Positions 26,182 to 31,316 of a DNA stretch of 64,000 bases are shown piece by piece. The DNA is taken from contig JAVYNU010000002.1 in assembly GCA_038735125.1 (NCBI GenBank), positions 1 through 64,000 of the forward strand, given 5' to 3'. The stretch comes from Ignisphaera sp. GTDB lineage: Archaea > Thermoproteota > Thermoprotei_A > Sulfolobales > Ignisphaeraceae. The notes under the pieces are model-generated. The model was given only the letters and a program-made list of their open reading frames with translations. It was not told the DNA's origin and ran no database searches. Position 1 is the stretch's first letter. Each line of letters opens with the position of its first letter. The translations under genes and the position numbers were made by a program.

Positions 26182-27318
26182 CTAGCACTTTACTCTTTTT
26201 AGAGAAACCCTAAGTCTAGTAACTATAGAAATGTGCCAAACAACTTCTCTAGAAACTTCTCCACTATCTCTACAAAACTCTATAAAAATCTTATTTTCAT
26301 TAAAGCGAATATTGAATCTCTTAACTCCTCTAAACTCTAGGTAATCGCCTACATCATTTTCAGATATACTCTCCCTCTTACTTGGGTCTCCACATGGTCC
26401 TAAATAGCACATGTTACAGAATTGGTTATGGGAAGCAATGTTTACTGAACATGCTGATGGATATACTCTATAACCCATATCGCGTGCCATTGAAACAAGC
26501 TTTTTCTTTATATCGGATTCCTTTACTGTTACCTGGTCTCCTCTACCCCTAAACCATCTTGGAATCCTAGGCAAAATCTCATTTATGTTCACGCCCCTAG
26601 TCTCTAAACTCTTCAAGATCCTCTCTGTTACCCTCAGAGAGCCGAAGACAACATCTCTAACCCCAAAATCCAAAGCCTTTGCAAGCATCTTTTTACCTTC
26701 TCTATCCGTCACACTAGGTATTATTGGCCTCACAAACAATGCAACATTCAGACCATTTTTAATAGCTATCGAGGCTCCTTCAAGTCTTTTGACTGGATCT
26801 GGAGCTCTTGGCTCCAGCTCTTTACTCTTATTAAGCGTGGTTATGGATAGAAGTATGCTTATATCAGGCTCTACACTCTTGAGTTGTTTAGCCAAGTTCT
26901 CATCTATAAAACTCTTTGTTGATACTTGGCTAAGCGGCTTAAGCCACCTACCGACTTCTTCAATGTACTCTACTGCAAGATCTCTCGTCGTAGAGTGGAA
27001 AGGCTCTGTAACAGAGCCGTAGGCAAGGAGAGACTTTTCTGGTAGCACATAAGGGTTCAAGGCTATGGCATAAGCCATTTCAAGAGACTTTAGAGGATAT
27101 GGCTTAACCCTTCCAGGAAACCCCATATCATATATGTAGCAATACGCACATGCATAGTCACAACCAACACCTGTGTGGATTGTCAATCCACATGGTCTGG
27201 GAGCTCTCTTGCTATGGCTATCCAAAGATGCTTTTCTAGCACTATTCTCGCCAATCAATTTTTCTAGCTCCTTTACAATCTGAAGCTTCTTTTCATACAA
27301 TTCAGTTATTCTCCCCAT
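26182..27318 (-). CDS. Radical SAM protein, spore-photoproduct-lyase-like (COG1533 type)
   Basis: The 378-residue protein carries the radical SAM motif CDYACAYC (CxxxCxxC, about residues 53-60) after HTGVG, as in the SplB-like COG1533 family. A second Cys-rich site near the C-terminus, CNMCYLGPCGDP, may hold another cluster or a metal. The family includes DNA-repair lyases and many uncharacterised archaeal enzymes; the substrate is unknown. The ATG at 27318 is chosen; a TTG at 27345 would overlap the upstream DUF429 gene. Last gene of the minus-strand cluster running from 29285. Confidence 0.75.
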   Translation of the reverse strand: MGRITELYEKKLQIVKELEKLIGENSARKASLDSHSKRAPRPCGLTIHTGVGCDYACAYCYIYDMGFPGRVKPYPLKSLEMAYAIALNPYVLPEKSLLAYGSVTEPFHSTTRDLAVEYIEEVGRWLKPLSQVSTKSFIDENLAKQLKSVEPDISILLSITTLNKSKELEPRAPDPVKRLEGASIAIKNGLNVALFVRPIIPSVTDREGKKMLAKALDFGVRDVVFGSLRVTERILKSLETRGVNINEILPRIPRWFRGRGDQVTVKESDIKKKLVSMARDMGYRVYPSACSVNIASHNQFCNMCYLGPCGDPSKRESISENDVGDYLEFRGVKRFNIRFNENKIFIEFCRDSGEVSREVVWHISIVTRLRVSLKRVKC

Positions 27319-27335
27319 AAAATACACCAAATATG

Positions 27336-27905
27336 CTAATAGCAAATCTCTTTAACAAGCCATATAACGCCATCAGATTCTTGAACAGGATTGGAGCATC
27401 CCCTGATAAAGCAGTATGCCGCTATAGCAGCCAGGAAAGCATCTTTAATATCTCTGTTCCCTCTATTGATTAGACTAGCATCAATCCCAAGCCTATTGGC
27501 CAGATCTTCCAACGAATTGCATCTGCTACTCTTGAGCACGCTCCTAGGGTGAGTCTCTATGACTGTTAGACCATATCCCAGCAATTTGCTGACAATCGAT
27601 ATTGCTCTTCTTGTCAACTCCCTCATTTGTTGCAAACCTGGTGGAAGAACTCTGTAGCCCATTGATATCATCTTTCTGTCAACTCTTCTAAGATGACCAT
27701 CTCCAAAGCCAAATGGGGCATCTATGGCAATAACAACATTACCATATTTCACAACATTGTGTATAATTTCATCATCTGTGCCTAGACATCTAGCCTCAGC
27801 TACTTGAATATGACTTGTATCTGCTATTACTACAAAACCTGTGCACCTACTTGGCTTGGCAGCTAGATCCAGACCTATGTAGAAGCCCTTAACCTCTACT
27901 TGCAT
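27336..27905 (-). CDS. DUF429 predicted RNase-H-fold nuclease
   Basis: The 189-residue protein starts YIGLDLAAKPSRCTG (first acidic strand of an RNase-H fold), followed by VVIAIDAPFG, DRKMISMGYRVLPP, IETHPRSVL and a late DAFLAAIAAY. These are the landmarks of DUF429, a family predicted to be an RNase-H-like nuclease or phosphohydrolase. Its ATG lies inside the 3' end of the TnpB-like gene (10-base overlap), so the two are translationally coupled. Two different RNase-H-fold proteins are therefore made from one transcript. Confidence 0.75.
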   Translation of the reverse strand: MQVEVKGFYIGLDLAAKPSRCTGFVVIADTSHIQVAEARCLGTDDEIIHNVVKYGNVVIAIDAPFGFGDGHLRRVDRKMISMGYRVLPPGLQQMRELTRRAISIVSKLLGYGLTVIETHPRSVLKSSRCNSLEDLANRLGIDASLINRGNRDIKDAFLAAIAAYCFIRGCSNPVQESDGVIWLVKEICY

Positions 27906-29134
27906 ATACTATCCAGTTCCTCTAGCCTTGCCTTAGCTTTTCTAAGCCCGCTCTTAACATAGTTTCTTCTCATCTTTAGCTCCGCAATTTGTTTATTCAA
28001 CTCCTCCAGCTCTTTCTGGAAAGCGTATAGCTTTTTGCTGATATTTATTGGTTTGTGGTGGGCATTGTTGAAGGGGGTTATTGAGGGTTCTCGTTCTTTA
28101 AGTTTTCTTAATCCCCTATACGCTATCATATACGCTGACGCCATGTGTTTGTCCAGTCCTTTCTCCTTCATTATCTGTCTATGTGTTGTACTACTACTTG
28201 TTCCAATAGGGTTCACTAGCACAACTGTGAATCCTAGTCTCAGAGTCTTGATAATACCATGTCTAATCAGTTCTCTTTTTGCGAATCTAGCAATCTTGCG
28301 ATTAGCATAAGAACTCTCTACAAAACTTCTGTGCTTTATCTTGGCCAGATCCTCAAACACCACATAGTCAACACCTATTCCTCTACACCATTTTAGGGCG
28401 TTGCTCAGTGCATTCAGCCTTAGCCACCTAGCCTTGTTTCTTGGAAATCCAGGTGATGTTATTTCACTGTAGCAGAGGCTCTTCATAGCGACTATGTTGG
28501 CATTGGCATCTATAACAACAACGTTGATTCTATCGCTGTTCAGGTCAAATCCTGCTACCAGTCCATAGCCCCTGGGCTTCTCTGTGCCAAGGTGTTTGAG
28601 GTATAGCCATAGAGGTACCTCTAGGTGGATATACACCTTTCCATTTCTAAATGTTATTGATGCACCATAGCTCTCCCTCTTAGCGTTAGCTAATTGTATC
28701 AACTCTTCGATTAGTGGTAAGTGCTTCCTTCCAAATCTTGTGGCGCATTCTATCCATTCACCATTATAATACCTAACTAGTACTCTATTGGTAGAGACCA
28801 ACCTTATATTCAGATTTCCTTTCCAAATAGTTCCACCTCTAGATGCAATCCACTTTCTTCTAATCCTTACCTTGCTCCCATTGCCTCCCTCCACCAAGAG
28901 CTTTGCATACTTATATGCTGTCTCGCCATAGATGCTACTTGGTAATAGCCTTGCCAGTTCTTTGTATGCATTGCCTTGCGGCACATTGTTTAGAACAAGA
29001 TTTATACCGTGTTTAGCAGCTTGTCTAAAGCGGTAAGCTAGTAAGCAGAGCTTCATATAGTCCTCACTACTCTTCGGTATGAGCATGCCATTAATTGTTA
29101 TGTACATGAACTGCTCCGTCACTTCCTCATCCAC
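27896..29134 (-). CDS. TnpB-like RuvC protein without zinc ribbon
   Basis: The 412-residue relative of IS605/IS1341 TnpB keeps all three RuvC acidic residues: D197 (GFDLNSDRI), E261 (VVFEDLAKI) and D328 (GLDKHMASAYMIA). The CxxC...CxxC zinc ribbon normally between the second and third is missing: GTSSSTTHRQIM runs straight into the last motif. Residues 362-410 form a charged coiled coil not usual in TnpB. No IS ends or downstream omega-RNA site is visible because the DUF429 gene overlaps its 3' end. It looks like an immobile, domesticated TnpB. GTG start, 7 bases after the upstream 47-aa gene. Confidence 0.75.
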   Translation of the reverse strand: MDEEVTEQFMYITINGMLIPKSSEDYMKLCLLAYRFRQAAKHGINLVLNNVPQGNAYKELARLLPSSIYGETAYKYAKLLVEGGNGSKVRIRRKWIASRGGTIWKGNLNIRLVSTNRVLVRYYNGEWIECATRFGRKHLPLIEELIQLANAKRESYGASITFRNGKVYIHLEVPLWLYLKHLGTEKPRGYGLVAGFDLNSDRINVVVIDANANIVAMKSLCYSEITSPGFPRNKARWLRLNALSNALKWCRGIGVDYVVFEDLAKIKHRSFVESSYANRKIARFAKRELIRHGIIKTLRLGFTVVLVNPIGTSSSTTHRQIMKEKGLDKHMASAYMIAYRGLRKLKEREPSITPFNNAHHKPINISKKLYAFQKELEELNKQIAELKMRRNYVKSGLRKAKARLEELDSICK

Positions 29135-29141
29135 TATTATC

Positions 29142-29285
29142 CTAGGTATCTGGCTTGATGACAGCCACTATCACCTCTTGCCCATGCAGATGAAGTATCT
29201 TATCCTCAATACCCTTGGGTATGTATATACACAGCTTCCTCTCGCTACACTTACTAATCCTAGCATGGAAAACGTATTGCTCCAC
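29142..29285 (-). CDS. 47-aa basic protein, TnpB-associated family
   Basis: A GTG at 29285 opens a 47-codon frame directly upstream of the TnpB-like gene. The protein contains YVFHARISK, CIYIPKGIEDKI and LHGQEVIVAVI. It matches the 47-aa protein at 62766-62909 almost along its full length (YVF-A-I-K, IY-PK, LHG--V-V-VI), with a one-residue gap. The strand-Pro-Lys-helix-strand pattern resembles half of an AbrB-type swapped-hairpin DNA-binding domain. A TATA box 30 bases upstream suggests leaderless translation. First gene of the four-gene cluster. Confidence 0.7.
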   Translation of the reverse strand: MEQYVFHARISKCSERKLCIYIPKGIEDKILHLHGQEVIVAVIKPDT

Positions 29286-29313
29286 AGCAGTACACCACAA
29301 AAATAATTTACAT

Positions 29314-29326
29314 AAAAGCTTATAAG
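29314..29326. promoter_or_regulatory. Bidirectional TATA-like element
   Basis: AAAAGCTTATAAG is nearly palindromic and can serve as a TATA box in both directions: about 30 bases from the GTG of the 47-aa gene on the minus strand, and about 28 bases before the 5' end of the structured RNA at 29350 on the plus strand. A near-identical AAAAGTTTATAAG lies at 62938-62950 before the other tnpB. Confidence 0.5.
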
Positions 29327-29349
29327 TCTAGCAGTACCAATTAGTATAT

Positions 29350-29612
29350 GAGATGTGGGGAGTGGACGAGCGATGACCAGTTGGGAGATAAGGATGAGAC
29401 TCCCCAAACCCCTCTACCCTCGCTCAAGGGAGTTTAGCAGAGCGATGCAGGAGGCTAAGGCGATGAAGCTAGGCTCCCGCAGGTGGGGGTAGAGGAAACT
29501 GTGAGGGATGAAGACCCAACATAAGGGTCAGACCTCTGGAGAACCTCAATCTTTCTCTGAAGCACATCTCTGTCAAGGCAGATCTCTTCAACTAGTGTCA
29601 CGGTCTTTTTAC
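29350..29612 (+). ncRNA. Candidate structured RNA, divergent from the TnpB-like operon
   Basis: No protein frame fits this GC-richer stretch. It folds by inspection: a closing 8-bp helix GAGATGTG (29350-29357) with CACATCTC (29563-29570); a 7-bp helix 29357-29363/29399-29405 (sharing one base with the first); a 9-bp helix CCTCTACCC (29411-29419)/29487-29495 continued inward by an 11-bp helix 29428-29438/29468-29478; a 5-bp hairpin 29513-29517/29525-29529; and a 6-bp hairpin 29538-29543/29553-29558. Several pairs are G-U only when read on the plus strand, which favours this orientation. A TATA box lies 28 bases upstream and TTTTT at about 29606 could end it. CGATG recurs three times in loops. 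It does not match SRP RNA, RNase P RNA or a C/D-box RNA that I recognise. Confidence 0.6.
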
Positions 29613-29628
29613 CCAACCAAAGATACAC

Positions 29629-30018
29629 CTATAGCCCCTTTCTCTTCACATACTCTTTATACAACTTATCTACTAAATAACTGTTAACATACTTGCCATG
29701 TGGTCTTAAACCACCTGAGAAGCTCTTTGGTATGTGGAGAAGCTCATGGATAAACACTTTAACCTTCTCCTCGGGTGAAAGGAGATAAAAATTTTTCTCT
29801 ATAATCTCTATGACGTACATGGGCTTCAATCCTAGTACAAATCTCCAAATGGATGGGAGCATATATATTCTTGCAATTGCTCTTGATCTGCACCCCCTAC
29901 AAACAACAATTTTAACGCTATCAATATTTATATGAGAAAAATGGTCTTTTAAGTTATTTACAATATCTCTTAGGAGAGCTTCAAGGCTATGGTCGTAGTA
30001 GTGCTCAGTCCTGGTCAA
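29629..30018 (-). CDS. Predicted zinc metallopeptidase
   Basis: The 129-residue protein contains HELLHIPKSFSGGLRPHGK: an HExxH-like HELLH zinc site followed by GGLRPH, the signature of a small archaeal family of predicted metallopeptidases (COG4900 type). A CxxC (CRGC) lies in the middle. It starts at a TTG with no clear upstream promoter and ends just past the 3' end of the candidate RNA. Cytoplasmic; substrate unknown. Confidence 0.7.
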   Translation of the reverse strand: MTRTEHYYDHSLEALLRDIVNNLKDHFSHINIDSVKIVVCRGCRSRAIARIYMLPSIWRFVLGLKPMYVIEIIEKNFYLLSPEEKVKVFIHELLHIPKSFSGGLRPHGKYVNSYLVDKLYKEYVKRKGL

Positions 30019-30041
30019 GGCCGTTTTCCTAGAAAACGATT

Positions 30042-31316
30042 CTATTTTATATTGTAGATTTTTTCAGCATTTTCATATAGAAGTCCACTTGCAATTTCGA
30101 TTGCTAGATCCTTGTCTATATAACCCTCGTCAACCATTTCCGATAATACATAGGCTATTTGCCTCTTGGCCAACATAGCTTTTCCATGTACCCAGTCAGC
30201 CACATATGCATCGCTGAAAAAGCCGCATGACTTGTTGTATGGGAGCATCTGTAGTCTTAGCCTAAGATACTCCCTTATTATCGATGGGTACATAGAGTAC
30301 CACCAGTATCCACTTACAAAGACATTTCTATAGTTCTTAGCCATAACTGTTAATGGATGTAGTAATCTCATGTCAGCTCCAATAACATCGAATTTGACGT
30401 TGGGGTAAGAGGCAAAGATGTTTGCAAGGTTTAGCAGCTGATCATAATTAACATGGGTTATGGCGTAATCTGGTGGTGCAGCACCTGGAACAGGCCTCTC
30501 AACACCTATCATAAACTGGAAAGCTTTTTTATGTTCATCACACAAATCTAGGAATTTCATGAGTATATATGACGATAGAAGCGATTTGGCATGCGAATCT
30601 ACATAACCTCTAACCTTTAGATCCTTTAGATAAAGCTGTATTTCTGATGGTTTAACGAATCTGTATAACTCTTCAGGAAGAGGGCTTAGAGCCACTGCCA
30701 CGATATCGTTTTCAAATTTTTTGAATAGAGCTTCTATAGCCTTGTCCAGATCCTCAGCTGTTTGTATTTCAAGGCCCGTTACCTTCTCTAGGCTAAGCAA
30801 ACTATCTTTGCTTAGATATGTTACCAGATTGTCTATTCTAAGTACACCGGTAAAAACATCTTTTCTGTAGCCACCAATCTCTGTAAATGGATTTAGAGTC
30901 AGAAACGTTTTTCTGACTTTGCAAACTTTTGTAAGCACCTCGAAAGCCCTGTTCTCATTGCCGGCCTTACTCTCTATAGCGTTAACCACATCTTTCCAGT
31001 TATTCTCGTCAATTATTTTTACATCCAAGTTGTACAAATCCTTTAGTATCTGCCTAAGAGACCAAAATGTTGCCGTATTTCTGATGTATCTAAAGTATTG
31101 AAGCGCATATGTAAGTCTATCAACACCCTTTCTCTTCTCAAATTCGCTTCTATCCATACCAGCAGAGGAAAGTTCGGTGACTATATAGTGGTAAAACAGT
31201 ATGTCTTCGAAGCTAGAGTGGGAGAGCTTAGAGGGATTCAAATGCTCATGAATATCAACAATAGATATCTTCAAAATCTCATTGTAAATCTCATTGAATA
31301 TCTCGCTAAAGCCCAT
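30042..31316 (-). CDS. Amidohydrolase-fold protein related to uronate isomerase
   Basis: This 424-residue protein has the metal-binding IVDIHEHLNPS near its start (HxH-like first strand of the amidohydrolase barrel), and length and motifs such as PEELYRFVKPSE and FISGYWWYS-like VFVSGYWWYS point to the glucuronate/uronate isomerase (UxaC-like) group. UxaC interconverts hexuronates and ketouronates. With GH4 and fucosidase genes nearby this would fit sugar-acid use, but a hydrolase of another substrate is possible. The ATG at 31316 is chosen over one six codons earlier. Confidence 0.6.
   Translation of the reverse strand: MGFSEIFNEIYNEILKISIVDIHEHLNPSKLSHSSFEDILFYHYIVTELSSAGMDRSEFEKRKGVDRLTYALQYFRYIRNTATFWSLRQILKDLYNLDVKIIDENNWKDVVNAIESKAGNENRAFEVLTKVCKVRKTFLTLNPFTEIGGYRKDVFTGVLRIDNLVTYLSKDSLLSLEKVTGLEIQTAEDLDKAIEALFKKFENDIVAVALSPLPEELYRFVKPSEIQLYLKDLKVRGYVDSHAKSLLSSYILMKFLDLCDEHKKAFQFMIGVERPVPGAAPPDYAITHVNYDQLLNLANIFASYPNVKFDVIGADMRLLHPLTVMAKNYRNVFVSGYWWYSMYPSIIREYLRLRLQMLPYNKSCGFFSDAYVADWVHGKAMLAKRQIAYVLSEMVDEGYIDKDLAIEIASGLLYENAEKIYNIK

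Follow-up and report, generated by a model that had tools for sequence, protein, structure and literature searches.

A structured RNA in Ignisphaera is probably the guide, with its own promoter, of a divergently encoded TnpB-like protein lacking a zinc ribbon

The analysed stretch of Ignisphaera sp. DNA (64,000 nucleotides, positions 1 to 64,000 of contig JAVYNU010000002.1, called the window here) raises the question of whether a structured RNA is encoded around position 29,400, and what such an RNA would do. A first-pass annotation had proposed a new structured RNA at 29350-29612. Single-sequence folding of the window copy did only mildly better than chance, with little difference between the strands (z of -2.5 for the plus strand and -2.7 for the minus strand), so the window alone could not settle the matter. 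It is the comparison of copies, and not the folding of the window, that establishes the structured RNA. The window's genome holds six RNA places, which outside the window itself are 80-91% alike and end at about 29540, and one further copy was found in another genus. The comparison bears out a plus-strand structured RNA of about 200 nt, with other limits than those proposed, notably at the 3' end: the RNA runs from about 29343 to 29540. The earlier reading had also missed that the RNA lies at the end of a mobile element, beside a divergent TnpB-like gene, and that six copies exist in the genome.

In an alignment of nine close copies (A5; L006, cut by a contig end, was left out), 18 of 40 pairs had changed on both sides. 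This number was reached in 0 of 500 shuffles, and a slid structure gave at most 4. The two-sided changes were distributed over the helices as 4/7 pairs in P1, 6/11 in P3 and 6/11 in P4. A 36-row alignment (A7), whose fitting to the model biases it towards the structure and which includes two reverse-strand palindromic rows, showed two-sided changes at 38 of 40 pairs, against at most 19 for the slid structure. In the plus-strand reading 37 cells were G-U and 17 A-C, and the U-G wobbles of P3 at columns 103-203 and 104-202 of A7 were kept in 22 and 33 of the 36 rows, respectively. An RNA on the minus strand was rejected on its consensus energy (-34, against -51 for plus) and its fewer wobble pairs.

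The three longer inner helices of the first-pass annotation were present, and the check on relatives that it had suggested was favourable for all of them: compensatory changes were found in the 7-bp helix (P1), which covaries in relatives, in the 9-bp helix (29411-29419 / 29487-29495, within P3) and in the 11-bp helix with G-U pairs (P4). The 5-bp helix (29513-29517 / 29525-29529) is likewise present and covaries in relatives, and the repeated CGATG corresponds to GATGA-type motifs that recur and are conserved. The exception is the 8-bp closing helix. Its segment 29563-29570 is host DNA that two relatives also have at their element-free alleles, and other copies carry unrelated sequence at that place; the pairing is a matter of chance, because one arm reaches into host DNA. 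The supposed single nest of helices gives way to separate domains, namely P1, P3/P4 and a 3' kink-turn hairpin. A 6-bp helix, for which no position had been specified, was not identified, and the downstream T-run belongs to host DNA, outside the RNA. The coordinates of all features are collected in Table 1.

Table 1. Features of the element and of its RNA (window positions).
Feature	Position	Strand	Remark
Whole element, 1,520 bp	28021-29540		Left end is the tnpB 3' side, right end the RNA 3' side
Left-flank motif TTCTGGA, candidate TAM / insertion target	28014-28020	+	
TnpB-like ORF without zinc ribbon, 412 aa	27896-29134	-	RuvC D-E-D kept; part before 28021 is host read-through
Small ORF, 47 aa, GTG start; putative regulator	29142-29285	-	AbrB/MazE-like by relatives
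TATA box CTTATAAG, palindromic	29319-29326	+	Upstream of RNA
Probable guide-RNA scaffold	29343-29540	+	Start estimated from TATA spacing
P1 (29356-29362 / 29400-29406)	29356-29406	+	Small hairpin CCAGTTGG inside
P3 (29411-29421 / 29485-29495) and P4 (29428-29438 / 29468-29478)	29411-29495	+	
Kink-turn hairpin	29503-29536	+	C-stem GAGG/CCTC, 3-nt loop GAT, GA/GA, second stem
Element right tip CTGGA	29536-29540	+	CTRGA throughout the window group
Candidate guide, host flank directly 3' of scaffold	29541-29560	+	Length inferred from known TnpBs

The kink-turn hairpin is the last hairpin of the RNA and adjoins the host flank; in the window its second stem is GACCC/GGGTC, with A-A between. A mechanical search found kink-turns in 29 of 72 upstream regions, where shuffled sequences would give 2.4 and the other strand gave 1 of 72; a few of the 29 lie elsewhere than at the end of the RNA. 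The motif may bind L7Ae, and co-precipitation of Sulfolobus RNAs with this protein has been reported, as cited in a review.

The ends of the element were fixed by element-free alleles in two genomes, G005 (L008) and G006 (L009), in which the left and right flanks are adjacent. In G005, window positions 27000-28034 and 29537-30500 adjoin and the element is absent; in the search for the window copy both genomes matched only window DNA after 29537. An element-free allele of the L004 locus was found in G005 also, while clean empty sites for L002, L003 and L005 were not found, one flank being lost or another repeat lying beside the site. One such neighbour (L005:1306-1394) is a short repeat of another kind, which recurs at several sites in G005 and in the window's genome (G000). 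The ends of the copies were accordingly placed by empty sites (window and L004), by left-end homology (others) or by the motif alone (L063 and L069). Homology among the copies stops at 29540 and the host flank beyond differs copy by copy, the end of the scaffold coinciding exactly with the start of host DNA.

TTCTRGA was found as left-flank motif at all nine window-group copies, and the right tip CCTCTRGA is nearly identical to it. In every copy compared, the R base is the same on the left and on the right (G/G in the window and L063, A/A elsewhere), which would also fit a short target duplication rather than an IS605-type insertion. No Y1 transposase was found in the element, nor PF01797 in the window's genome; tnpB-only elements exist. 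Spread by plasmids or viruses was rejected: the plasmids searched gave no match, and 0 of 16 candidates were confirmed in a viral scan. The interrupted host gene is coiled-coil-like (window 27896-28020 and 29541-29612). Because the element interrupts this gene, the tnpB ORF continues into host sequence at 27896-28020 and is fused by read-through to one part of it, whereas the remaining part runs antisense to the candidate guide. A putative metallopeptidase (PF18894, PhageMetallopep) lies beside the element at 29629-30018 on the minus strand.

The protein of the window matches TIGR01765 and TIGR01766, both below their cut-offs. For comparison, 27 proteins were aligned, without L069 and L077 (stop codons), L072, L073 and L082 (match lengths not multiples of three) and L046. 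The catalytic RuvC residues D, E and D were invariant across this alignment, and TnpB-related NCBIfam models matched 20/27 and 22/27 members. Pfam domains were found in 0/27, the window protein included. A zinc ribbon with two CxxC motifs was present in none of the 27, one member having a single CxxC, and the Pfam TNB domain was equally missing from all. At locus L007 (1651-2562), a copy of genome G015 lies against a canonical TnpB gene, one TnpB element being beside or inside another; this canonical neighbour does have the zinc-ribbon TNB domain (PF07282). A sequence search of the PDB returned only two Cas12X chains (E 0.002-0.004). The predicted structure of the window protein (pLDDT 87, pTM 0.80) was matched over nearly its whole length by Cas12f (9i8y, Z 21.1, 294 residues aligned, rmsd 4.3 Å) and, also among the matches listed, by ISDra2 TnpB (8exa, Z 15.7, 276 aligned, rmsd 4.6 Å). 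Judged by this model, the effector has the TnpB/Cas12f fold together with the RuvC D-E-D. Inspection by eye also showed, at L037:1928-2509 and downstream of a zinc-less tnpB, an ORF resembling an IS607-type serine recombinase, a possible mobiliser.

In order to describe the linkage between RNA and protein, a covariance model (R1) built from nine window-like copies was run over 100 sources, giving 44 matches with E up to 1, of which 35 had E up to 0.01. Once the training loci (L011 and L061 both being the L007 locus), a palindromic match on the reverse strand and three duplicated contigs were set aside, 25 independent distinct places remained at E ≤ 0.01. At 24 of them the RNA is divergent from a zinc-less tnpB, on the upstream side of that gene; the single solitary place, L010, has no tnpB nearby. 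The 25 places span Desulfurococcales, Metallosphaera, Thermofilaceae and Baldrarchaeota. Seen from the protein side, 66 tnpB loci had at least 400 nt upstream, and an R1 match with E ≤ 0.01 was found in 27 and none in 39, L046 and L059 (E 0.016 and 0.069) not being counted as matches. Fifteen of the 39 matchless loci were inspected by eye, and 13 showed a similar-looking divergent RNA.

Across 398 genomes of the phylum, R1 matched at E ≤ 1e-4 in 17 genomes, at 29 places. A tnpB was detected within about 1.5 kb at 14 places (HMM of the 27 proteins), with 13 of them divergent and one, L151, overlapping. The other 15 RNAs are solitary, including four in the window's genome, where two of the six copies adjoin a tnpB; at L002, L003 and L005 tnpB is absent, and promoter and RNA are kept. 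The RNA of L150/L010 (G009:C1:12458-12535) is an internally deleted form of 78 nt, in which only the 5' part and the 3' hairpin are kept.

A TATA box upstream of the RNA, as the first-pass annotation had noted, was located (Table 1). Such a box was found upstream in 29 of 34 RNAs, at a fairly fixed spacing, and downstream in 4 of 34. Reading the same 60 nt on the opposite strand gave a TATA in 28/34, and it is so frequent because CTTATAAG is its own complement. A palindromic TATA alone proves no strand, yet it would fit a shared bidirectional promoter, and the box is probably common to both transcription units. Dyads in the TATA region reached p ≤ 0.05 in 12 of 30 loci (shuffles; 1.5 expected). 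The significant ones are mostly centred on the TATA, e.g. with ACAGAAAA-CTTATAAG-like centres; in the window itself the dyad was not significant in shuffles. The position of the dyads around the TATA therefore suggests a putative operator for the neighbouring regulator ORF. The small ORF of the window copy had no Pfam match. ORFs at the equivalent place in L074 and L075 match PF04014 (AbrB/MazE-like), and that of L053 is ribbon-helix-helix-like (E 1e-4, below cut-off).

The novelty claimed for the RNA stands in part. No Rfam family reached its gathering score in the window, and RF02814 (Sso133, Sulfolobus sRNA133) gave no match up to E 10 in 29200-29700. The core of the Sulfolobales form, on the other hand, is already Sso133: RF02814 matches L077 and L082 (Metallosphaera) at 93.6 bits, inside the core of the divergent RNA. 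It matched in 22 of 398 genomes, over the cut-off in 12, and several matches coincide with R1 places. RF02814 models only 73 nt of the core, and its entry names no TnpB or function. The Sulfolobales form of the RNA is thus already catalogued, without a function as far as searched. A seventh RNA in the window's genome, L174 (G000:C8:94564-94628), was seen only by RF02814 (46 bits), with no tnpB found in the locus. Genome G041 carries seven weak RF02814 matches that stay under the cut-off, and TnpB-like genes adjoin two of these. The hint at RNase P came to nothing, as neither RNase P nor SRP RNA had an Rfam match in the window. The HEARO and RAGATH families had none either (gathering score in the window; E 10 over 29200-29700).

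Among systems with a known nuclease, IscB is a Cas9-type protein whose omega RNA (HEARO) lies upstream of the nuclease gene, as here, but on the same strand. The likeness to omega/reRNAs (ISDra2, SisTnpB) is closer: the protein has the TnpB/Cas12f fold with the RuvC D-E-D, the structured RNA stands at the element end with its 3' end leading into the host flank, and a conserved motif is found in the opposite flank. As described for ISDra2, TnpB guides consist of the transposon end plus flank, the guide being about 16 nt, and the TAM is the insertion site (PMC8612924). In the descriptions consulted, the known omega/reRNA is read in the direction of tnpB and overlaps its 3' end. The RNA of this element lies upstream of tnpB, runs the other way and has its own promoter. 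At L004, the tnpB stop codon is about 31 nt from the element tip. Further differences from known TnpB systems are the effector without zinc ribbon, the regulator-like ORF in between and the guide-proximal kink-turn. The anatomy is omega-RNA-like, with two usual omega features absent (the same-strand tnpB 3' overlap and the zinc ribbon), and the RNA is therefore not a plain member of the omega-RNAs.

The RAGATH-18 / IS607 TnpB reRNA was likewise first seen as an orphan structured RNA, and a possible kink-turn is mentioned for it; according to the same account TnpB is upstream of the RNA there, unlike here (PMC11061315). RNA-257 of Sulfolobus (ISC1904) is, as portrayed in PMC3674436, likewise multi-copy, transposon-derived and expressed from its own promoter; it is homologous to the distal coding part of the ISC1904 transposase and not divergent upstream. 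No description of a TnpB with a divergent guide was found in the open-licence literature searched.

Taken together, the RNA is probably the guide RNA, transcribed from its own promoter, of a zinc-ribbon-less Cas12f/TnpB-like protein encoded divergently, in a gene order that reverses the one seen in previously studied TnpBs. The RNA is widespread in archaea, and the analysis establishes its structure, strand and homology, its linkage to tnpB, the ends of the element and the similarity of the protein fold. Transcription, binding by TnpB, use of the guide and cleavage are what we infer for it, as follows. From a divergent promoter with a palindromic TATA, the RNA would be transcribed rightward and a regulator-tnpB operon leftward. 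The scaffold would fold as P1, P3/P4 and the kink-turn hairpin, and transcription would pass the element tip at 29540 into the flank, the first 16-20 nt of which would serve as guide. The protein-RNA complex would then recognise and cut the element-free allele, in which the flank comes directly after TTCTRGA; repair would restore the element, which would stay in place. The RNA persists in copies without tnpB and could there load a TnpB supplied in trans.

This assignment has weak points. TTCTRGA is so similar to CCTCTRGA that self-cleavage of the locus would be expected from a nuclease that simply depends on a TAM. The TAM and the own tip of SisTnpB7 are reported to differ, and self-cutting is avoided (PMC11043419). 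For the element described here there would be three ways out: the T at -7 may be decisive, the border between scaffold and flank may be protected, or the complex may bind DNA and not cut it. Also against the assignment are the 39 of 66 tnpB loci that are matchless, the 15 of 29 RNA places that lack tnpB within about 1.5 kb, the failure of Pfam to detect a domain in the 27 proteins, the kink-turn search with its 29 hits in 72 regions, and the left-right agreement of the R base, which would fit a target duplication too.

The last of these solutions to self-cutting leads to a different function, in which the RNA would control the divergent tnpB operon or other genes, as an antisense or repressor RNA, or the complex would bind without cutting. 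TldR-like proteins are such binding-only repressors and not cutters. The resemblance of the TAM-like motif to the own tip would fit binding of this kind, as would the lost zinc ribbon, the many solitary RNAs and the small regulator-like ORF that adjoins the RNA; transposon-derived RNAs are also described as antisense regulators in Sulfolobus (PMC3674436). We nevertheless consider such a role rather unlikely, since the catalytic D-E-D is invariant in 27/27 aligned proteins, the RNA has no overlap with tnpB and the scaffold stops exactly at host DNA.

Alternatively, the stretch could be no more than a transposon's right end, with DNA hairpins for the transposase and no RNA function. IS200/IS605 elements typically have hairpins in their single-stranded ends, and the location at the element end, the retention in copies without tnpB and the equally good folding on both strands would agree with this. 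To our knowledge, known transposon ends are far shorter than a branched covarying structure of about 200 nt. The one-sided excess of G-U over A-C cells with conserved P3 wobbles, the TATA box at a fairly fixed distance, the filing of relatives in Rfam as sRNA Sso133 and the failure to find a Y1 transposase in the window's genome all argue for an RNA instead, and a mere DNA end is quite improbable. A free-standing host RNA (box C/D sRNA, RNase P or SRP RNA) that stands beside a transposon by chance can be given hardly any credence. The GATGA motifs do resemble box C, a kink-turn occurs in C/D RNAs and a weak match to the box C/D sRNA sR15, the best of this class, was obtained at 29504-29562 (E 1.4). 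This match, with 17.2 bits against a gathering score of 40, runs over the element border into the host gene; no family reached its gathering score, and the copies travel with the element, whose ends disfavour a host RNA.

A wider reading can be put forward as a tentative possibility, to be taken jointly: a distinct archaeal lineage of RNA-guided effectors with separate, divergent genes for guide and Cas12-like protein, one palindromic promoter, an AbrB or ribbon-helix-helix regulator encoded by the element, L7Ae as a subunit from the host on the guide-proximal kink-turn, and solitary guide genes dispersed over the genomes and acting in trans, in which the protein is perhaps a repressor rather than a cutter.

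If the guide-RNA assignment is true, the orphan Rfam RNA Sso133 would gain a likely function, and the family from which Cas12 descends would gain a zinc-less archaeal branch. The guide RNA would come from its own promoter rather than by processing of the nuclease mRNA, which would be a move in the direction of the separate guide loci that CRISPR systems have. The hyperthermophile would also provide a small effector with a separate guide, which is directly testable.
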